A model generated the notes under the pieces. The model made no database searches, had not been told where the DNA came from, and saw only the letters and a program-made list of their open reading frames with translations. Positions 41,528 through 49,656 of a stretch of DNA of 64,000 bases are shown here, piece after piece; the stretch's first letter is position 1, and each line of letters opens with the position of its first letter. The DNA is from Ignavibacteria bacterium (GTDB lineage Bacteria; Bacteroidota; Ignavibacteria; Tepidaquicellales; Tepidaquicellaceae): positions 352,975 to 416,974 of the forward strand of contig JAQTLX010000002.1 in assembly GCA_028714695.1 (NCBI GenBank), read 5' to 3'. A program made the position numbers and the translations under genes.

Positions 41528-42232
41528 ATGAAAAAGATTTTACTGTCGGTTTGTGTCGTATTTCTAATGTCTTCGAATTTATTTTCGCAGACACCGTTTA
41601 GTTTCGGCGCCAAAGTAGGCGCGAATATTCCTATCGGAACATTCAGCGATGTTTACAAGAGCGGTGTTTCAGGAGAAGTCGTATTATATTATTCAACACC
41701 ATTGCCTGTGCTCGATCTTTCATTGACAGTCGGTTATGACGGCTTCAAATATAAAAATGATTATTTTACAAATCAAATCAGCACAAATTTTCCGGGTGTG
41801 ACAGTTGATAATTTCAGTCCTTCCTGGACCGCAACCGATATACCGATTATGGTTGGTGCGAAGGTGAAATTGCCGTTTGTCAGCATGGGTCCTTATTTTA
41901 CAGGCGAGGTGGGTATCCATTTTTTAAGTCTTAATGACAGGTTCATGGCAGGTCAGATAAATGTTTCGAGTTCAAATCCTATGCACATTAATACGGTTGG
42001 ATATTCCGAATCTAAAAGCGTTGCAGGTTTCGGATTCGCTCTTGGCGCAGGTTTGGAAATACCCCTTGTGCCTAAAATCGGCATTGATATCGCGCTGAAA
42101 TATAATTATGCAACCAATACCTACGCGAATTCATATACGATATTCAGAAATAATAATGAACAGTTCACTACGTTAGAACTCAAGAATATTTCTTACATTA
42201 CGGCAAAAGCAGGTGTGATTGTACACCTTTAG
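41528..42232 (+). CDS. Outer-membrane beta-barrel protein, copy 1
   Basis: 234 residues with a signal peptide (MKKILLSVCVVFLMSSNLFSQ) and an alternating pattern of about 8-10 beta strands (FGAKVGANIPIGTFSDVYKSG at the start, YITAKAGVIVHL at the end). The terminal aromatic or hydrophobic residue pattern is usual for OmpA-like or porin-like barrels. It is paralogous to the next gene (42399), of the same length. An AAAAGGAG Shine-Dalgarno precedes the ATG. A terminator follows. The function is unknown. Confidence 0.8.
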   Translation: MKKILLSVCVVFLMSSNLFSQTPFSFGAKVGANIPIGTFSDVYKSGVSGEVVLYYSTPLPVLDLSLTVGYDGFKYKNDYFTNQISTNFPGVTVDNFSPSWTATDIPIMVGAKVKLPFVSMGPYFTGEVGIHFLSLNDRFMAGQINVSSSNPMHINTVGYSESKSVAGFGFALGAGLEIPLVPKIGIDIALKYNYATNTYANSYTIFRNNNEQFTTLELKNISYITAKAGVIVHL

Positions 42233-42261
42233 TAATTGATGATTTGTAAACGGTAAATTAG

Positions 42262-42286
42262 AGCGGGCGTGAGTCCGCTTTTTTTT
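42262..42286 (+). terminator. Rho-independent terminator
   Basis: A 7-bp stem AGCGGGC / GTCCGCT with a GTGA loop, followed by an eight-T run. It closes copy 1 of the barrel pair. Confidence 0.85.
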
Positions 42287-42398
42287 ATCGAAATATGAAA
42301 TTCAAAAGGGGGAGAAAATTTACTTTCTTATAAAAATTCTTTAAATTATTATAATATTCGATATTTAAGTCAGAACAGAAAAATTTAAAGGAATCAAA

Positions 42399-43103
42399 AT
42401 GAAAAAAATAGTATTGGCATTCATAGTTATTTTGATGTATTCGGGAAATCTATATTCACAACTGCCGTTAAGTTTTAGCGCAAAAGCCGGCACTAACATG
42501 ACGTTCGGCAGTTTTAACGATGTGTACAAAAACGGATTATCGTGGGAACTTTCGGCATATTATTCCACGCCATTACATGGACTTGATCTTTCTGCATCGT
42601 TAGGTCACGACGGTTTCAAATATCAGAACACATATCTGGCAGATCAGGTCAGTAAAAATTTTACCGGTGTAACGCTGAAGGATTTTAGTCCTGACTGGAC
42701 AGCATCGGATATGAATTTACTCTTTGGCGCGAAATTCACGCTGCCCGTTGGTACGACAAAGACATATCTCACTGCCGAAGGGGGTGTTCATTTCGTGAAT
42801 TTTGCTGACAGGTTAAAAGGACAGAGGATTAACGGTTCGAGCAACGCACAGATGACAATTGATTTAAATAACAATACTGAATCGGTATCTCAGTCGGCAT
42901 TCGGCTATGCAATCGGCGGGGGAATGGAATTACCAATTGTACCTAAAGTAGCGCTTGATATAAGTCTGAAATACAATTATACCGGAGTTAAGTTTTCAAA
43001 TGCATACACAATATACAGAAACAGCAACGAACAGTTTACAGTATCGGAACTTAAAAACATGAATTATTTGACTGCACGAGGCGGAATAATAATTCATCTT
43101 TAG
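42399..43103 (+). CDS. Outer-membrane beta-barrel protein, copy 2
   Basis: 234 residues, clearly paralogous to 41528: same signal peptide layout, the shared motifs SFSAKAGTNMTFGSFNDVYK and SLKYNYTGVKFSNAYTIYRN, and the same C-terminal barrel strand ending GIIIHL. It is a tandem duplication with independent terminators, so the two copies can be expressed separately. AAAGGAA precedes the ATG. Confidence 0.8.
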   Translation: MKKIVLAFIVILMYSGNLYSQLPLSFSAKAGTNMTFGSFNDVYKNGLSWELSAYYSTPLHGLDLSASLGHDGFKYQNTYLADQVSKNFTGVTLKDFSPDWTASDMNLLFGAKFTLPVGTTKTYLTAEGGVHFVNFADRLKGQRINGSSNAQMTIDLNNNTESVSQSAFGYAIGGGMELPIVPKVALDISLKYNYTGVKFSNAYTIYRNSNEQFTVSELKNMNYLTARGGIIIHL

Positions 43104-45001: not shown

Positions 45002-45559
45002 ATGGATGACAAAGAAATAATTTCGGAATTAAAGAATGGCAACAAAGATGTCTTCAGGGAATTAATTCTCAGTCATCAGAAATTCATTTTGAATATTTGT
45101 TACAAGTTTGTGAACAACATAGACGATGCGCACGACATATCGCAGGAAGTCTTCATAGAAGTTTACAAGACGATAGGGAAATTCAGAGGAGATTCGGGTA
45201 TAAAGACATGGCTATACAGGATAGCGGTCAACAGGTCGCTGAATTTCATAAGGGACAACAAAAAGAGCAAGACTACGGACAGTTATTCGGAAAATCCTCA
45301 GAATATATACGACAGCACTACGGGATCAACACCGGAGACAGATTTAGAAGATAAAGAACGAAAGAAGATATTGACAGATTCAATAGATTCATTGCCTGGC
45401 AACCAGAAAGCGGTTTTCGTACTTTGCAAGATAGAAGGTTTGAGTTATGATGAAATTAGCAAGATATTGGATTTATCCGTCAAAGCCGTAGAGTCTTTAT
45501 TAATGAGAGCAAAAAAGAATCTCCAAAAATCGCTGCTTGACTATTATTCACAATCCTGA
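45002..45559 (+). CDS. ECF (sigma-70 family) RNA polymerase sigma factor
   Basis: 185 residues. Region 2 (about 20-85) has NIDDAHDISQEVFIEVYK and FRGDSGIKTWLYRIAVNR; region 4 (about 125-180) has LPGNQKAVFVLCKIEGLSYDEI and SVKAVESLLMRAKKNL. It directs RNA polymerase to a small set of promoters when released by its anti-sigma factor. The anti-sigma gene (46278) is two genes downstream, with a Cys/Met-rich gene between, an unusual order. No Shine-Dalgarno is obvious before the ATG. Confidence 0.93.
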   Translation: MDDKEIISELKNGNKDVFRELILSHQKFILNICYKFVNNIDDAHDISQEVFIEVYKTIGKFRGDSGIKTWLYRIAVNRSLNFIRDNKKSKTTDSYSENPQNIYDSTTGSTPETDLEDKERKKILTDSIDSLPGNQKAVFVLCKIEGLSYDEISKILDLSVKAVESLLMRAKKNLQKSLLDYYSQS

Positions 45560-45643
45560 TTTGCAAAAATTCCAAATTATTTTTAATGCATTGTATATCA
45601 GTCCTGATACGGCTATTTTTTTATATATTAATTAAATCAATCG

Positions 45644-46015
45644 ATGAAAACAAAATTATTTTTCCTCTCCATTGTTATAGTTACTGCATTTTTATTTATT
45701 TACGGAGCAACGTACAGTTCAAATACCGATAAAAGCAACAAATATACTTTGAACGGAAAAGACTCGATGAAATGCAAAATGGACGGCAAATGCATACAGG
45801 AATGCAAAAAAATGCAGGACGGCAAATGTATGAAAGACGGCAAATGCAATATGAACGGCGAAGGGAAGTGCATGAAAGAAGGAAAGTGTGATATGAATGA
45901 TACATGTAAGATGAGGAAAGACTGCGAAATGAAAGACTGCGAAATGAAAGACTGCGAAATGAAAGACGGCATGAAATGCAATAAGGGCGATAGGAAATGT
46001 CCCAATTCGAAATAG
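45644..46015 (+). CDS. Secreted Cys/Met/Lys-rich repeat protein
   Basis: 123 residues. A signal peptide (about 1-24) precedes a low-complexity domain that holds 13 Cys and 12 Met in about 80 residues, arranged as DGKC(M/N) units and three tandem MKDCE pentapeptides (45926-45970). Hydrophobic residues are almost absent, so it is probably disordered until it binds metal or forms disulfides. It resembles MxKDx pentapeptide-repeat proteins but adds Cys. It sits inside the ECF-sigma locus; a soft-metal (Cu/Ag/Zn) or redox role is inferred, not shown. Confidence 0.85.
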   Translation: MKTKLFFLSIVIVTAFLFIYGATYSSNTDKSNKYTLNGKDSMKCKMDGKCIQECKKMQDGKCMKDGKCNMNGEGKCMKEGKCDMNDTCKMRKDCEMKDCEMKDCEMKDGMKCNKGDRKCPNSK

Positions 46016-46060
46016 AGAATTGTAATACAGGTTTTAAGTACAGATAGAGTTTAACAAAAT

Positions 46061-46099
46061 AGGATTTAATCAATTTACAGTATTAAATCCTGTTTTTTT
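46061..46099 (+). terminator. Rho-independent terminator
   Basis: A 10-bp stem AGGATTTAAT / ATTAAATCCT (46061-46070 and 46082-46091) followed by a T run. It separates the Cys/Met gene from the anti-sigma gene. Confidence 0.8.
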
Positions 46100-46277
46100 A
46101 TATTATAGTTTCTACAATCCGATAATTCGCATTAATGATATGCGTTCCACATTTTAAATCTTTACAAAAGAACTTCGTAAAATATGTAATTACAATAATT
46201 TACATAAAATTTCAATTTTTTCTTAAAAAACCGAAGGATTTAGGATTTTTCTGTGTCTAATAATTAAAACGAATCAA

Positions 46278-46706
46278 ATGGATTGCAAACAAATAAGAGA
46301 ACATTTCCTTGTCATGGCAGAAAAGGGGTTAAAAAAGGAAGAAGAGGCTGAAATTACCGGGCATTTGGCTTCCTGCAGCGAATGTTCTGCATTATACGAG
46401 AAAGTCGCCTCAGCATACGGTTTGCTAAATGTGATTGAAGAAGTTGAGCCAAGAGCATTTTTTGCAGAAAGCATCATGAATAAACTGGATGCAGTAACCG
46501 AATCCATAAAAGAACCGAATCTGATATACGATTATCTTTTTTCGGGATTTTTTAAAAAGATTGCACTTTCGGGTGCCGCATTTGTTGTGGGGTTGATATT
46601 ATTCTTTTACATAACAGAGGGAACAATATCGTTCAATTTTCTCGGTGAAGAAGACAACTCTTCATCGAATAGTGTCACGGAATTATTCCTCGACAATTTT
46701 AATTAA
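46278..46706 (+). CDS. Zinc-finger anti-sigma factor
   Basis: 142 residues. The N-terminal ZAS domain has H29-x3-C33-x2-C36 plus C3, the usual zinc ligands of anti-ECF sigma factors (zf-HC2). One transmembrane helix lies near 93-112, leaving about 30 residues in the periplasm, shorter than most. It would hold the ECF sigma at the membrane until a signal arrives. It is followed 8 bases later by the Spy-like gene. A TGTGTCTAATAATT stretch at 46251-46264 resembles 10454-10467, a possible shared promoter element. Confidence 0.88.
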   Translation: MDCKQIREHFLVMAEKGLKKEEEAEITGHLASCSECSALYEKVASAYGLLNVIEEVEPRAFFAESIMNKLDAVTESIKEPNLIYDYLFSGFFKKIALSGAAFVVGLILFFYITEGTISFNFLGEEDNSSSNSVTELFLDNFN

Positions 46707-46714
46707 AAAGGAAA

Positions 46715-47077
46715 ATGAAAAAGAAACATATTATAATATTATTATCGACATTAATAATAGGCATCATAATCGGCGGATTGGCGATGGGTATCTATTCTCA
46801 CAAAAGAATGAATTCTTATATGGAAAATCCGACTCCGGAAAAACTTAAAAGCAGAAATATGCACATGCTCGATCCTGATGTAAGCCAGTTGAAACAGATA
46901 GAACCGATACTGGATAAATATTCGGTAAAGGCATACAATGCTTTAAAGGAAAACGAATTCAGGATGTACACGATGTATGATTCGCTTTACCAGGAGTTAA
47001 AGCCTCTGCTTAATGAAACGCAGCAGGACAAGTTTGAAAAAAAATTAAACAGGATTAAAACAAAAATCGGAAAATGA
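46715..47077 (+). CDS. Spy/CnrX-like periplasmic protein
   Basis: 120 residues. One N-terminal signal anchor (about 5-27) is followed by a helical, Met- and Lys-rich domain: SRNMHMLDPDV, RMYTMYDSLYQELKPLLNETQQDKFEKKL. The last segment is the typical helix of Spy, CpxP and CnrX/ZraP-type proteins, which sense metals or chaperone proteins in the periplasm. It lies between the anti-sigma gene and the outer-membrane receptor gene, and its stop overlaps the next start (ATGA), so it is translationally coupled. Confidence 0.75.
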   Translation: MKKKHIIILLSTLIIGIIIGGLAMGIYSHKRMNSYMENPTPEKLKSRNMHMLDPDVSQLKQIEPILDKYSVKAYNALKENEFRMYTMYDSLYQELKPLLNETQQDKFEKKLNRIKTKIGK

Positions 47078-49596
47078 AAATGAAAAAAATAGTAAATATT
47101 TATCTGCTTATTCTCATAGTTTTTTCAGTAGTACTGTTTACAGGAAATATATCCGCCCAACCGGTTAAGCAAAAAGTGAAGGGCAACGGAAAAATCACAG
47201 GGACGGTAATGGATAAGGAAACTAAGGGACCGCTTTTTTCGGCTACAGTACAGGTATTCAAGCAAAAGGATTCAACAAAAATCGCCGGCGCGGAAACAAA
47301 TGAGAACGGTCAGTATTCAATAGATGTACCGTTCGGAAGATACAATGTTGTAATAAGTTACATCAGTTACAGTTCATCTGTTTACAACGGAATACAAATC
47401 AATACTGCTTCGCCCATACATGACATCGGGATTACCAATTTATCATCAAGCGTCACAACGACTGAAGTAATTGAAGTCACAGCAGAAAAAGATTTCATGG
47501 AAACATCAATAGACAAGAAAGTTTTCAATCTTGACAAGAGTTTAGTGACGGAAGGCGGAACGGCGACTGACGTACTGGCTACTATTCCTTCGGTAACAGT
47601 TGATGGAGACGGAAACGTAAGCCTTCGCGGAAGTTCAAACGTAAAATTTCTTGTTGATGGAAAGCCGTCGGGGCTTATAGGAAATGATCCGACGAATGCG
47701 CTTCAGCAGATTCCGTCTAACATGATAGAAAGGGTTGAAATAATTGACAATCCTTCGGCGAAATACGACCCGGACGGAACATCGGGTATTATAAACCTTA
47801 TAATGAAGAAAACCGAGGAGGCGGGATATAATGGAAGCGTAAGCGTCAATACAGGTGTGCACGACAAATACAACACATCCGTTAATTTGAATTACAAGAC
47901 TAAAAATTTCAATGTATTCGGAAGTTATAATTACAGGCTGTTCAATATGATAGGTCACGGTGTCAGTACGAGGGAAAATATTTTTGGAGATTCAACATTT
48001 TTCTTTGATCAAAATTCGACGCAGCATTTCACGATGCAGGGAAACATGGGGTCGCTTGGTTTCGATTATTTCGTCAGTGCGAAAGATAAATTAAGTTTAA
48101 GCGGCACATACAATAACAGGAACAGGACTATTAATCAGACTTTAAATTTCAAGAATCTGGATGCAACGGGCGACATCACATCGCAATACGTCAGGAATAA
48201 CAAGGAAGAGCACACCGGAAATGTCGGCGATATCACACTAAGTTACGACCACAAGTTCGCGAATCCGAAAGAAGATCTCTCGGCTGTCGTATATTATTCA
48301 ACGACCAAGGACGATGAGACGCTTAATATAAATCAGTTGAACCTGTCTCCGGGTGGCAATCCGCTTATAAATCCTTTACTGCAGAACACTTATACAAACG
48401 GCAAATACACCTTAGGTTCATTTCAGGTTGATTATACGCATCCTTTCGGCAGTATTAAAGACAAAGGAATCGGAAACAGAAGCGGTAGCGACGATTCACG
48501 ATATGAACTTGGTTATAAAGGTTCAATTAAGAATACGAGTTCTGATTTCAGGTCAGAGACCTTTGATTACAATCTCGGAGGATATACGGATGATGCGCTT
48601 CTGGACAATAATTTTGATTACAAAGAGCAGATACATTCGTTTTACGGATTATATGCAAACGCCTACAAGGATTTCAAGTATCAGATTGGTCTAAGGCTTG
48701 AAGAAGCTCTGACGACATCCACATTAGTCACGACGAATCAGACATACGACAACAATTATTTCAGTTTCTTTCCGAGTTTTTATCTATCCCAGAAATTTGC
48801 TGAAACGAATGAATTACAGTTAAACTACAGCAGAAGAATCAACAGACCTAATCTTAGAATGCTGAATCCATTCATTGATTATTCGGATCCATACAATTTA
48901 TCGCAGGGAAATCCTTATTTAAAACCTGAATATATAAATTCATTTCAGTTCAGTTACATCAAATATTTAGATTTTGCTTCTATAACATCGACAATATTCT
49001 ATAAGCAAATCAACGATATGATGTCAAGGATAGTGACCGTAACGCCAGACGGAGTTTCGACGACTACATTTCAGAATCTAAACAGCGCGAAATCATACGG
49101 AGCGGAAATAACGACCAGCGGACATCCTTTTAAGTGGTGGAATTTCAACGGCGACTTTACTTATTTCAGAACAGTAATAAACGGGGGCGATGCAAATGCG
49201 GTACTGAATAACGATAACTACAGTTACACCGCGAAACTAATGAATAATTTTACAGTTGGAAGCCTTTTCGATTTTCAGATAGCATATAATTATCAGGGAC
49301 CTTCGGTGCTTGCTCAGGGTAGAATGGATCCCATACAATCATTCGATCTTGCAATTAAGAAGAATATTTTAAACGGGAAGGGGAGCATAGGATTCAGAGT
49401 AAGCGATATCTTTAATCAGGCAAGATATTCAAGCGAAACAAGCGGACCTAATTTTATACAGGACAACTTAAGATACAGAGATTCAAGAATTGCATTCCTG
49501 ACATTCTCATACAGATTCGGTTCTGACGGAATGCAAAAGCAGAAGAAAGAAAAACCGAAAAACGAAGACGAGAATAACGATAACGGAGATTATTAA
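47074..49596 (+). CDS. Outer-membrane receptor-like beta-barrel protein (OMP_b-brl_3)
   Basis: 840 residues. It has a signal peptide, a carboxypeptidase-D regulatory domain (about 38-115; GKITGTVMDKETKGPL), and a plug-like region (VLATIPSVTVDGDGNVSLRG, VDGKPSGLIG, IERVEIIDNPSAKYDPDG). It ends in a long beta-barrel of the OMP_b-brl_3 group with a C-terminal FLTFSYRF strand. Such proteins form part of the TonB-dependent receptor superfamily and import nutrients or metals, though a TonB box is not clear. It is the last gene of the ECF-sigma locus and probably its main regulated product. Confidence 0.88.
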   Translation: MKMKKIVNIYLLILIVFSVVLFTGNISAQPVKQKVKGNGKITGTVMDKETKGPLFSATVQVFKQKDSTKIAGAETNENGQYSIDVPFGRYNVVISYISYSSSVYNGIQINTASPIHDIGITNLSSSVTTTEVIEVTAEKDFMETSIDKKVFNLDKSLVTEGGTATDVLATIPSVTVDGDGNVSLRGSSNVKFLVDGKPSGLIGNDPTNALQQIPSNMIERVEIIDNPSAKYDPDGTSGIINLIMKKTEEAGYNGSVSVNTGVHDKYNTSVNLNYKTKNFNVFGSYNYRLFNMIGHGVSTRENIFGDSTFFFDQNSTQHFTMQGNMGSLGFDYFVSAKDKLSLSGTYNNRNRTINQTLNFKNLDATGDITSQYVRNNKEEHTGNVGDITLSYDHKFANPKEDLSAVVYYSTTKDDETLNINQLNLSPGGNPLINPLLQNTYTNGKYTLGSFQVDYTHPFGSIKDKGIGNRSGSDDSRYELGYKGSIKNTSSDFRSETFDYNLGGYTDDALLDNNFDYKEQIHSFYGLYANAYKDFKYQIGLRLEEALTTSTLVTTNQTYDNNYFSFFPSFYLSQKFAETNELQLNYSRRINRPNLRMLNPFIDYSDPYNLSQGNPYLKPEYINSFQFSYIKYLDFASITSTIFYKQINDMMSRIVTVTPDGVSTTTFQNLNSAKSYGAEITTSGHPFKWWNFNGDFTYFRTVINGGDANAVLNNDNYSYTAKLMNNFTVGSLFDFQIAYNYQGPSVLAQGRMDPIQSFDLAIKKNILNGKGSIGFRVSDIFNQARYSSETSGPNFIQDNLRYRDSRIAFLTFSYRFGSDGMQKQKKEKPKNEDENNDNGDY

Positions 49597-49620
49597 GAGC
49601 AGTACCTTAATGAAGACAAA

Positions 49621-49656
49621 AAGCATCCGGTTGATATACAGCCGGATGCTTTTTTA
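49621..49656 (+). terminator. Rho-independent terminator of the ECF locus
   Basis: A perfect 10-bp stem AAGCATCCGG / CCGGATGCTT (49621-49630 and 49642-49651) with a T run. The 241 bases after it, up to 49897, are AT-rich and show no other feature. Confidence 0.9.

Follow-up and report, generated by a model that had tools for sequence, protein, structure and literature searches.

A family-specific ECF sigma factor with an RsiW-like zinc anti-sigma factor, and its predicted DUF6600 regulon, in an Ignavibacteria bacterium

A stretch of 64,000 nucleotides (here called the window; contig JAQTLX010000002.1, positions 352,975 to 416,974) from the 3.85-Mb genome of an Ignavibacteria bacterium harbours a locus that has the looks of a regulatory switch: an extracytoplasmic function (ECF) sigma factor, a membrane anti-sigma factor and a TonB-dependent-receptor-like protein of the outer membrane. 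It comprises five open reading frames, all on the + strand. They encode, in this order, the sigma factor (45002..45559), a small, secreted or anchored protein rich in cysteine and methionine (45644..46015), the anti-sigma factor (46278..46706), a membrane-anchored periplasmic helical protein with a weak resemblance to Spy and CnrX (46715..47077) and the receptor-like protein (47074..49596). An initial annotation had described these five genes, and the reading frames, their coordinates and their main features proved to be right. It had missed an ECF-type promoter (46231..46260) and a terminator, which lie between the Cys/Met-rich gene and the anti-sigma gene. The window's genome is designated G000 below; four others that carry the sigma factor are G001, G008, G009 and G023.

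With 185 residues and sigma-70 regions 2 and 4 only, the sigma factor is built like the typical ECF protein of about 180 residues; both Pfam matches (Sigma70_r2, 4e-17; Sigma70_r4_2, 2e-16) are above the cut-offs, and the identity to its four orthologs is 56-62%. The anti-sigma factor has one transmembrane helix. Its Pfam match to zf-HC2, the zinc anti-sigma (ZAS) motif, is weak (19.9 bits, with a cut-off of 22.2). The motif H-x3-C-x2-C itself, however, is invariant in all five orthologs, and the family profile matches the RsiW structure 5wuq at 7e-7, which places the protein among the RsiW-like anti-sigma domains of class I (ASDI). The zinc of RsiW has been described as structural (PMC7406223). 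A redox-sensing ZAS protein of the RsrA type was considered and, from the sequence, judged unlikely: such proteins are soluble, whereas this one has a hydrophobic helix of the transmembrane type, and its matches to RsrA are weak (E 0.85 in the profile comparison; 23.1 bits versus 62.5). As noticed before, the periplasmic tail is very short. It measures some 25-30 residues and ends with a conserved [LF][FL]DN(F) motif. Probably, the protein holds the ECF sigma factor.

The genes of the locus are not transcribed together, as far as can be predicted. An intrinsic terminator follows the Cys/Met-rich gene at 46061..46099; its stem has -13.8 kcal/mol (z -5.7) and leads into a T run. The predicted promoter, CCGAAGG-N15-GTGTCTAA, stands 17 bp upstream of the anti-sigma start codon, the start of the receptor gene overlaps the stop of the Spy-like gene, and a second, strong intrinsic terminator follows at 49618..49654. 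Because the two terminators bracket the promoter and the three genes, anti-sigma, Spy-like and receptor genes are read here as a single operon under its own promoter, with the sigma and the Cys/Met-rich gene outside. Neither of the latter has a copy of this promoter in front; on the + strand, from 44400 to the promoter at 46231, there is no GTGTC.

Orthologs of the anti-sigma factor are encoded in these four other genomes of the family, and when some 85,000 species genomes were scanned, the four came up again and no others; they are metagenome-assembled genomes labelled Ignavibacteriae or Bacteroidetes, with fen and Lake Pavin among the sampled sites. G008 and G023 keep the order sigma, anti-sigma, Spy-like protein, receptor, and so does G001 across two contig ends. 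Anti-sigma and Spy-like genes are adjacent in G000, G008, G009 and G023, and the receptor gene comes next in all but G009, where the sigma gene is found on another contig. Since the two contig ends of G001 differ where they overlap, this assembly may contain two copies or two strains. Thus, of the gene order seen in the window, the relatives confirmed the four genes named, yet not the Cys/Met-rich one. The motif stands upstream of the anti-sigma gene with a spacing of exactly 15 bp in all five genomes, also in G009. In the class (391 genomes), the exact motif occurs in 5/5 genomes with the sigma factor and in 1/386 of the others; within the family the figures are 5/5 and 0/24 (p ~8e-6). Across the 29 genomes of the family, sigma clade, anti-sigma factor and motif show perfect co-occurrence, with all three present in 5. 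One might still regard the locus as two unrelated neighbours: the sigma factor and the Cys/Met-rich gene would share one role, and the anti-sigma operon would be read by a different sigma factor. The terminator and the gap of 262 bp between the two units of the window would fit this idea, as would the displaced sigma gene of G009; the perfect co-occurrence does not, and makes it very improbable. In G009, non-coding repeats of the type ggtaacgcctacggcgttaaagagctaaa precede the anti-sigma promoter (L021 1200-1540).

If the sigma factor reads CCGAAGG-N15-GTGTCTAA, as we infer, pattern searches for this word define its regulon. Apart from the operon, G000 has two sites (searched with up to two mismatches), one upstream of a DUF6600 gene, the other upstream of a TPR gene that overlaps a second DUF6600 gene. 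Further exact sites in G009 precede a DUF6600 gene and a gene for a PF14905 receptor. In G008 and in G023 the only further site, with one mismatch, precedes the gene of a DUF6600 lipoprotein. For a random site, the chance to stand within 200 bp upstream of a DUF6600 gene is about 1e-4. In G001 a gene that resembles the N-terminus of DUF6600 proteins directly follows the receptor gene. Family members that lack this sigma factor have DUF6600 genes as well; the domain is therefore to be seen as an output of the system, not as something unique to it. We found no paper on DUF6600 in the literature searched. A small secreted helical, LTXXQ-like protein without a Pfam match is encoded about 120 bp downstream of the second DUF6600 gene of the G000 regulon (contig C7, L063 8310-8708). 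One promoter word that occurs no more than a few times in each genome amounts to a specific and testable regulon in bacteria that have received little study, and it ties DUF6600 to one envelope sigma factor and to one family of outer-membrane receptors.

The initial annotation had counted the Cys/Met-rich protein as a part of the system. Of its 123 residues, the 96 that follow the signal or anchor sequence contain 13 cysteines and 12 methionines and no histidine. The gene is real: when the bases of the region were shuffled 2000 times, no open reading frame of this length arose, and another genus has a relative with 63% identity to the protein. The gene is, however, missing from the other four loci, where sigma and anti-sigma genes are separated by 268 bp (G001), 275 bp (G008) and 71 bp (G023). 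Among the 391 genomes of the class, relatives are confined to G009, which has two; their contigs also encode proteins of the thioredoxin, DsbD and TlpA types and hold no sigma gene. It has its own terminator and no regulon promoter. Taken together, its absence from the other loci, the terminator, the missing promoter and the location of its relatives mean that, on the genomic evidence, the gene is an independent passenger outside the conserved system. The protein itself is probably a metal or thiol binder. Comparison with known family profiles revealed no bufferin or DUF2282 match; partner enzymes had no dedicated search. The lesson is a general one: metal-rich proteins can be encoded beside a locus as passengers, and their presence should not be taken as its function.

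The Spy-like protein (120 residues) is harder to classify. Pfam yields no direct match to LTXXQ or Metal_resist; its profile aligns with LTXXQ/Metal_resist-type paralogs at a probability of 78% (hhalign). The earlier Spy/CnrX label has moderate support. The structure model displays a membrane helix and a helical bundle (pLDDT 75). Foldseek found no significant match for it; a second fold comparison listed Spy at Z 4.3 over 60 residues with an rmsd of 4.1, ranked among unrelated helical bundles, and did not list CnrX. A PDB sequence search with the profile returned chance coiled-coil matches only, and tblastn against plasmids returned nothing. Apart from Met1, not one His, Cys or Met residue that could bind metal is invariant among the orthologs; His50 is missing in G001.

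These data bear on what the initial annotation had proposed: a system for metal or thiol stress, in which the Cys/Met-rich and the Spy-like protein would bind metal, the latter as CnrX does, and relieve the zinc anti-sigma factor. The neighbourhood of the Cys/Met-rich gene and the sigma gene invites this idea; so do the conserved ZAS motif, the weak relation to Spy and Metal_resist, an unrelated Cys-rich protein within the G009 operon (see below) and the company of the Cys/Met relatives in that genome. Yet the other loci lack the Cys/Met-rich gene, and in the window it stays outside the promoter-terminator bracket, for which reason sensing through its product was set aside as the main reading. 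In the Spy-like protein no metal ligand is conserved, the nearest structure of the anti-sigma factor is RsiW and not the redox sensor RsrA, and the inferred regulon consists of receptors, DUF6600 and TPR proteins and contains neither efflux nor thiol genes. A zinc motif and a likeness to Spy do not imply sensing. Metal or thiol sensing is thus not supported, and we consider it unlikely.

The last gene of the operon encodes a protein of 840 residues with an N-terminal CarboxypepD_reg domain, a Plug domain (1e-10) and a PF14905 barrel (OMP_b-brl_3, 1e-103), i.e., a TonB-dependent receptor of the PF14905 type. A PDB search with it gave no useful match. Pfam searches of the locus proteins detected neither an STN domain on the receptor nor a FecR domain anywhere at the locus, so that the distinction from FecR-type ECF/receptor loci, already drawn in the initial annotation, stands. 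Could the receptor nevertheless be the sensor? It might recognise an outside substrate and signal to the anti-sigma factor in the manner of FecA and FecR, without their known domains. It does lie in the operon, and in G009 a copy has remained under the promoter after the loss of its companions: on contig C354 (L076 2696-2925) an intact regulon promoter is followed by a decayed fusion, in which a large deletion has brought the first anti-sigma codons together with the 3' part of a Spy-like gene, and then by an intact receptor gene. This receptor, however, is unlinked from a working anti-sigma factor and resembles an output, and a tail of the length seen here is short for a FecR-like contact. 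Cell-surface signalling of this kind appears improbable. That promoter and receptor were retained while the anti-sigma and Spy-like copies decayed argues instead that the receptor is a regulon target in its own right.

What we favour, with a probability of roughly 70%, is a family-specific switch made of an ECF sigma factor and an RsiW-type zinc anti-sigma factor, which would feed back on itself and drive the receptor and DUF6600 proteins. The sigma gene would be expressed separately from its target operon. A cue from the outer membrane or the periplasm, probably related to the state of the envelope, would reach the short conserved tail of the anti-sigma factor and release the sigma factor; the likeliest partner to relay the cue to the tail would be the Spy-like protein of the operon. 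The freed sigma factor would then recognise its motif and transcribe the operon of anti-sigma factor, Spy-like protein and receptor, which would provide negative feedback and output at the same time. It would also transcribe the unlinked genes of secreted DUF6600 proteins, of TPR proteins and, in one relative, of a second receptor.

Several observations speak against this switch or at least complicate it. The evidence that pairs the sigma factor with the motif is their co-occurrence. A fourth site in G009 has two mismatches and falls within a coding gene, probably by chance. The DUF6600 likeness of the G001 gene is partial; the contig breaks off ahead of the domain, and Pfam gives no match. 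In another genome, G002, the Spy-like gene is retained alone next to mnmA (L065 2423-2929, contig C150), while sigma, anti-sigma and receptor genes are gone; as the gene is kept there without the rest of the system, its product may have a use of its own. Finally, the G009 operon includes a Cys-rich secreted protein of 120 residues (GKCGSCCCKKQCGKEKC), encoded 4 bp downstream of the Spy-like gene (L115 2448-2810, contig C92), which may leave room for a role of metal or thiols. It is unrelated to the Cys/Met-rich protein of the window. Its relatives in G003 and G004 are flanked by the genes of a 625-residue and a YCF48-like protein, and the sigma system is missing there, which suggests that in G009 the sigma cassette was inserted into a pre-existing cluster.

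A bolder extension of the proposed switch can be offered tentatively, and we would rather bet against it than on it: an RsiW-type anti-sigma factor with such a short tail would be controlled in trans by the Spy-like protein and would drive the assembly or supply of a surface structure made of DUF6600 proteins and the PF14905 receptor. If true, this new layout would give DUF6600 its first regulatory context. The locus is adjoined in the window by a tandem pair of paralogous 234-residue outer-membrane barrel proteins (41528-43103), a relative of which is also encoded near the G001 locus.

How does the system compare with known ones? FecIRA-type loci and the ECF/FecR/SusC loci of Bacteroidota likewise have an ECF sigma gene beside genes of an anti-sigma factor and a TonB-dependent-receptor-like protein. 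Here, the receptor is of the PF14905 type, the anti-sigma factor has a zinc motif, and FecR and STN are absent, which speaks against FecIR/TonB cell-surface signalling. With CnrYXH of Cupriavidus metallidurans it shares an ECF sigma factor, a short-tailed membrane anti-sigma factor and a membrane-anchored periplasmic helical protein that are encoded together. CnrY, however, belongs to class II, whereas the present anti-sigma factor is of the ZAS/RsiW type; moreover, a receptor is added. A metal sensor of the CnrYXH type is unlikely, as neither conserved metal ligands in the helical protein nor an efflux pump in the inferred regulon were found. Closer to home, G000 has a second ECF cassette (C5:130787-131341, L057), which consists of a sigma factor, a 99-residue membrane anti-sigma factor and a Spy protein of the LTXXQ/Metal_resist type; similar cassettes are present in G003 (L059), G008 (L056) and G009 (L058). 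They show the identical order of sigma factor, small membrane anti-sigma factor and anchored Spy-like protein, but their anti-sigma factors have no zinc motif, and the stretches read show no receptor gene behind them. SigW/RsiW of Bacillus subtilis likewise has an ECF sigma factor, a single-pass H-x3-C-x2-C anti-sigma factor and an envelope-type logic. In contrast to SigW/RsiW, the periplasmic part of the present anti-sigma factor is very short and has a conserved end of its own; the anti-sigma gene shares its operon with the Spy-like and receptor genes, and the sigma gene resides in a separate transcription unit. As judged from the genomes compared, we take the locus to be a real, family-specific system of the ECF/RsiW type with a clearly defined promoter, and its link to DUF6600 to be the most interesting lead.

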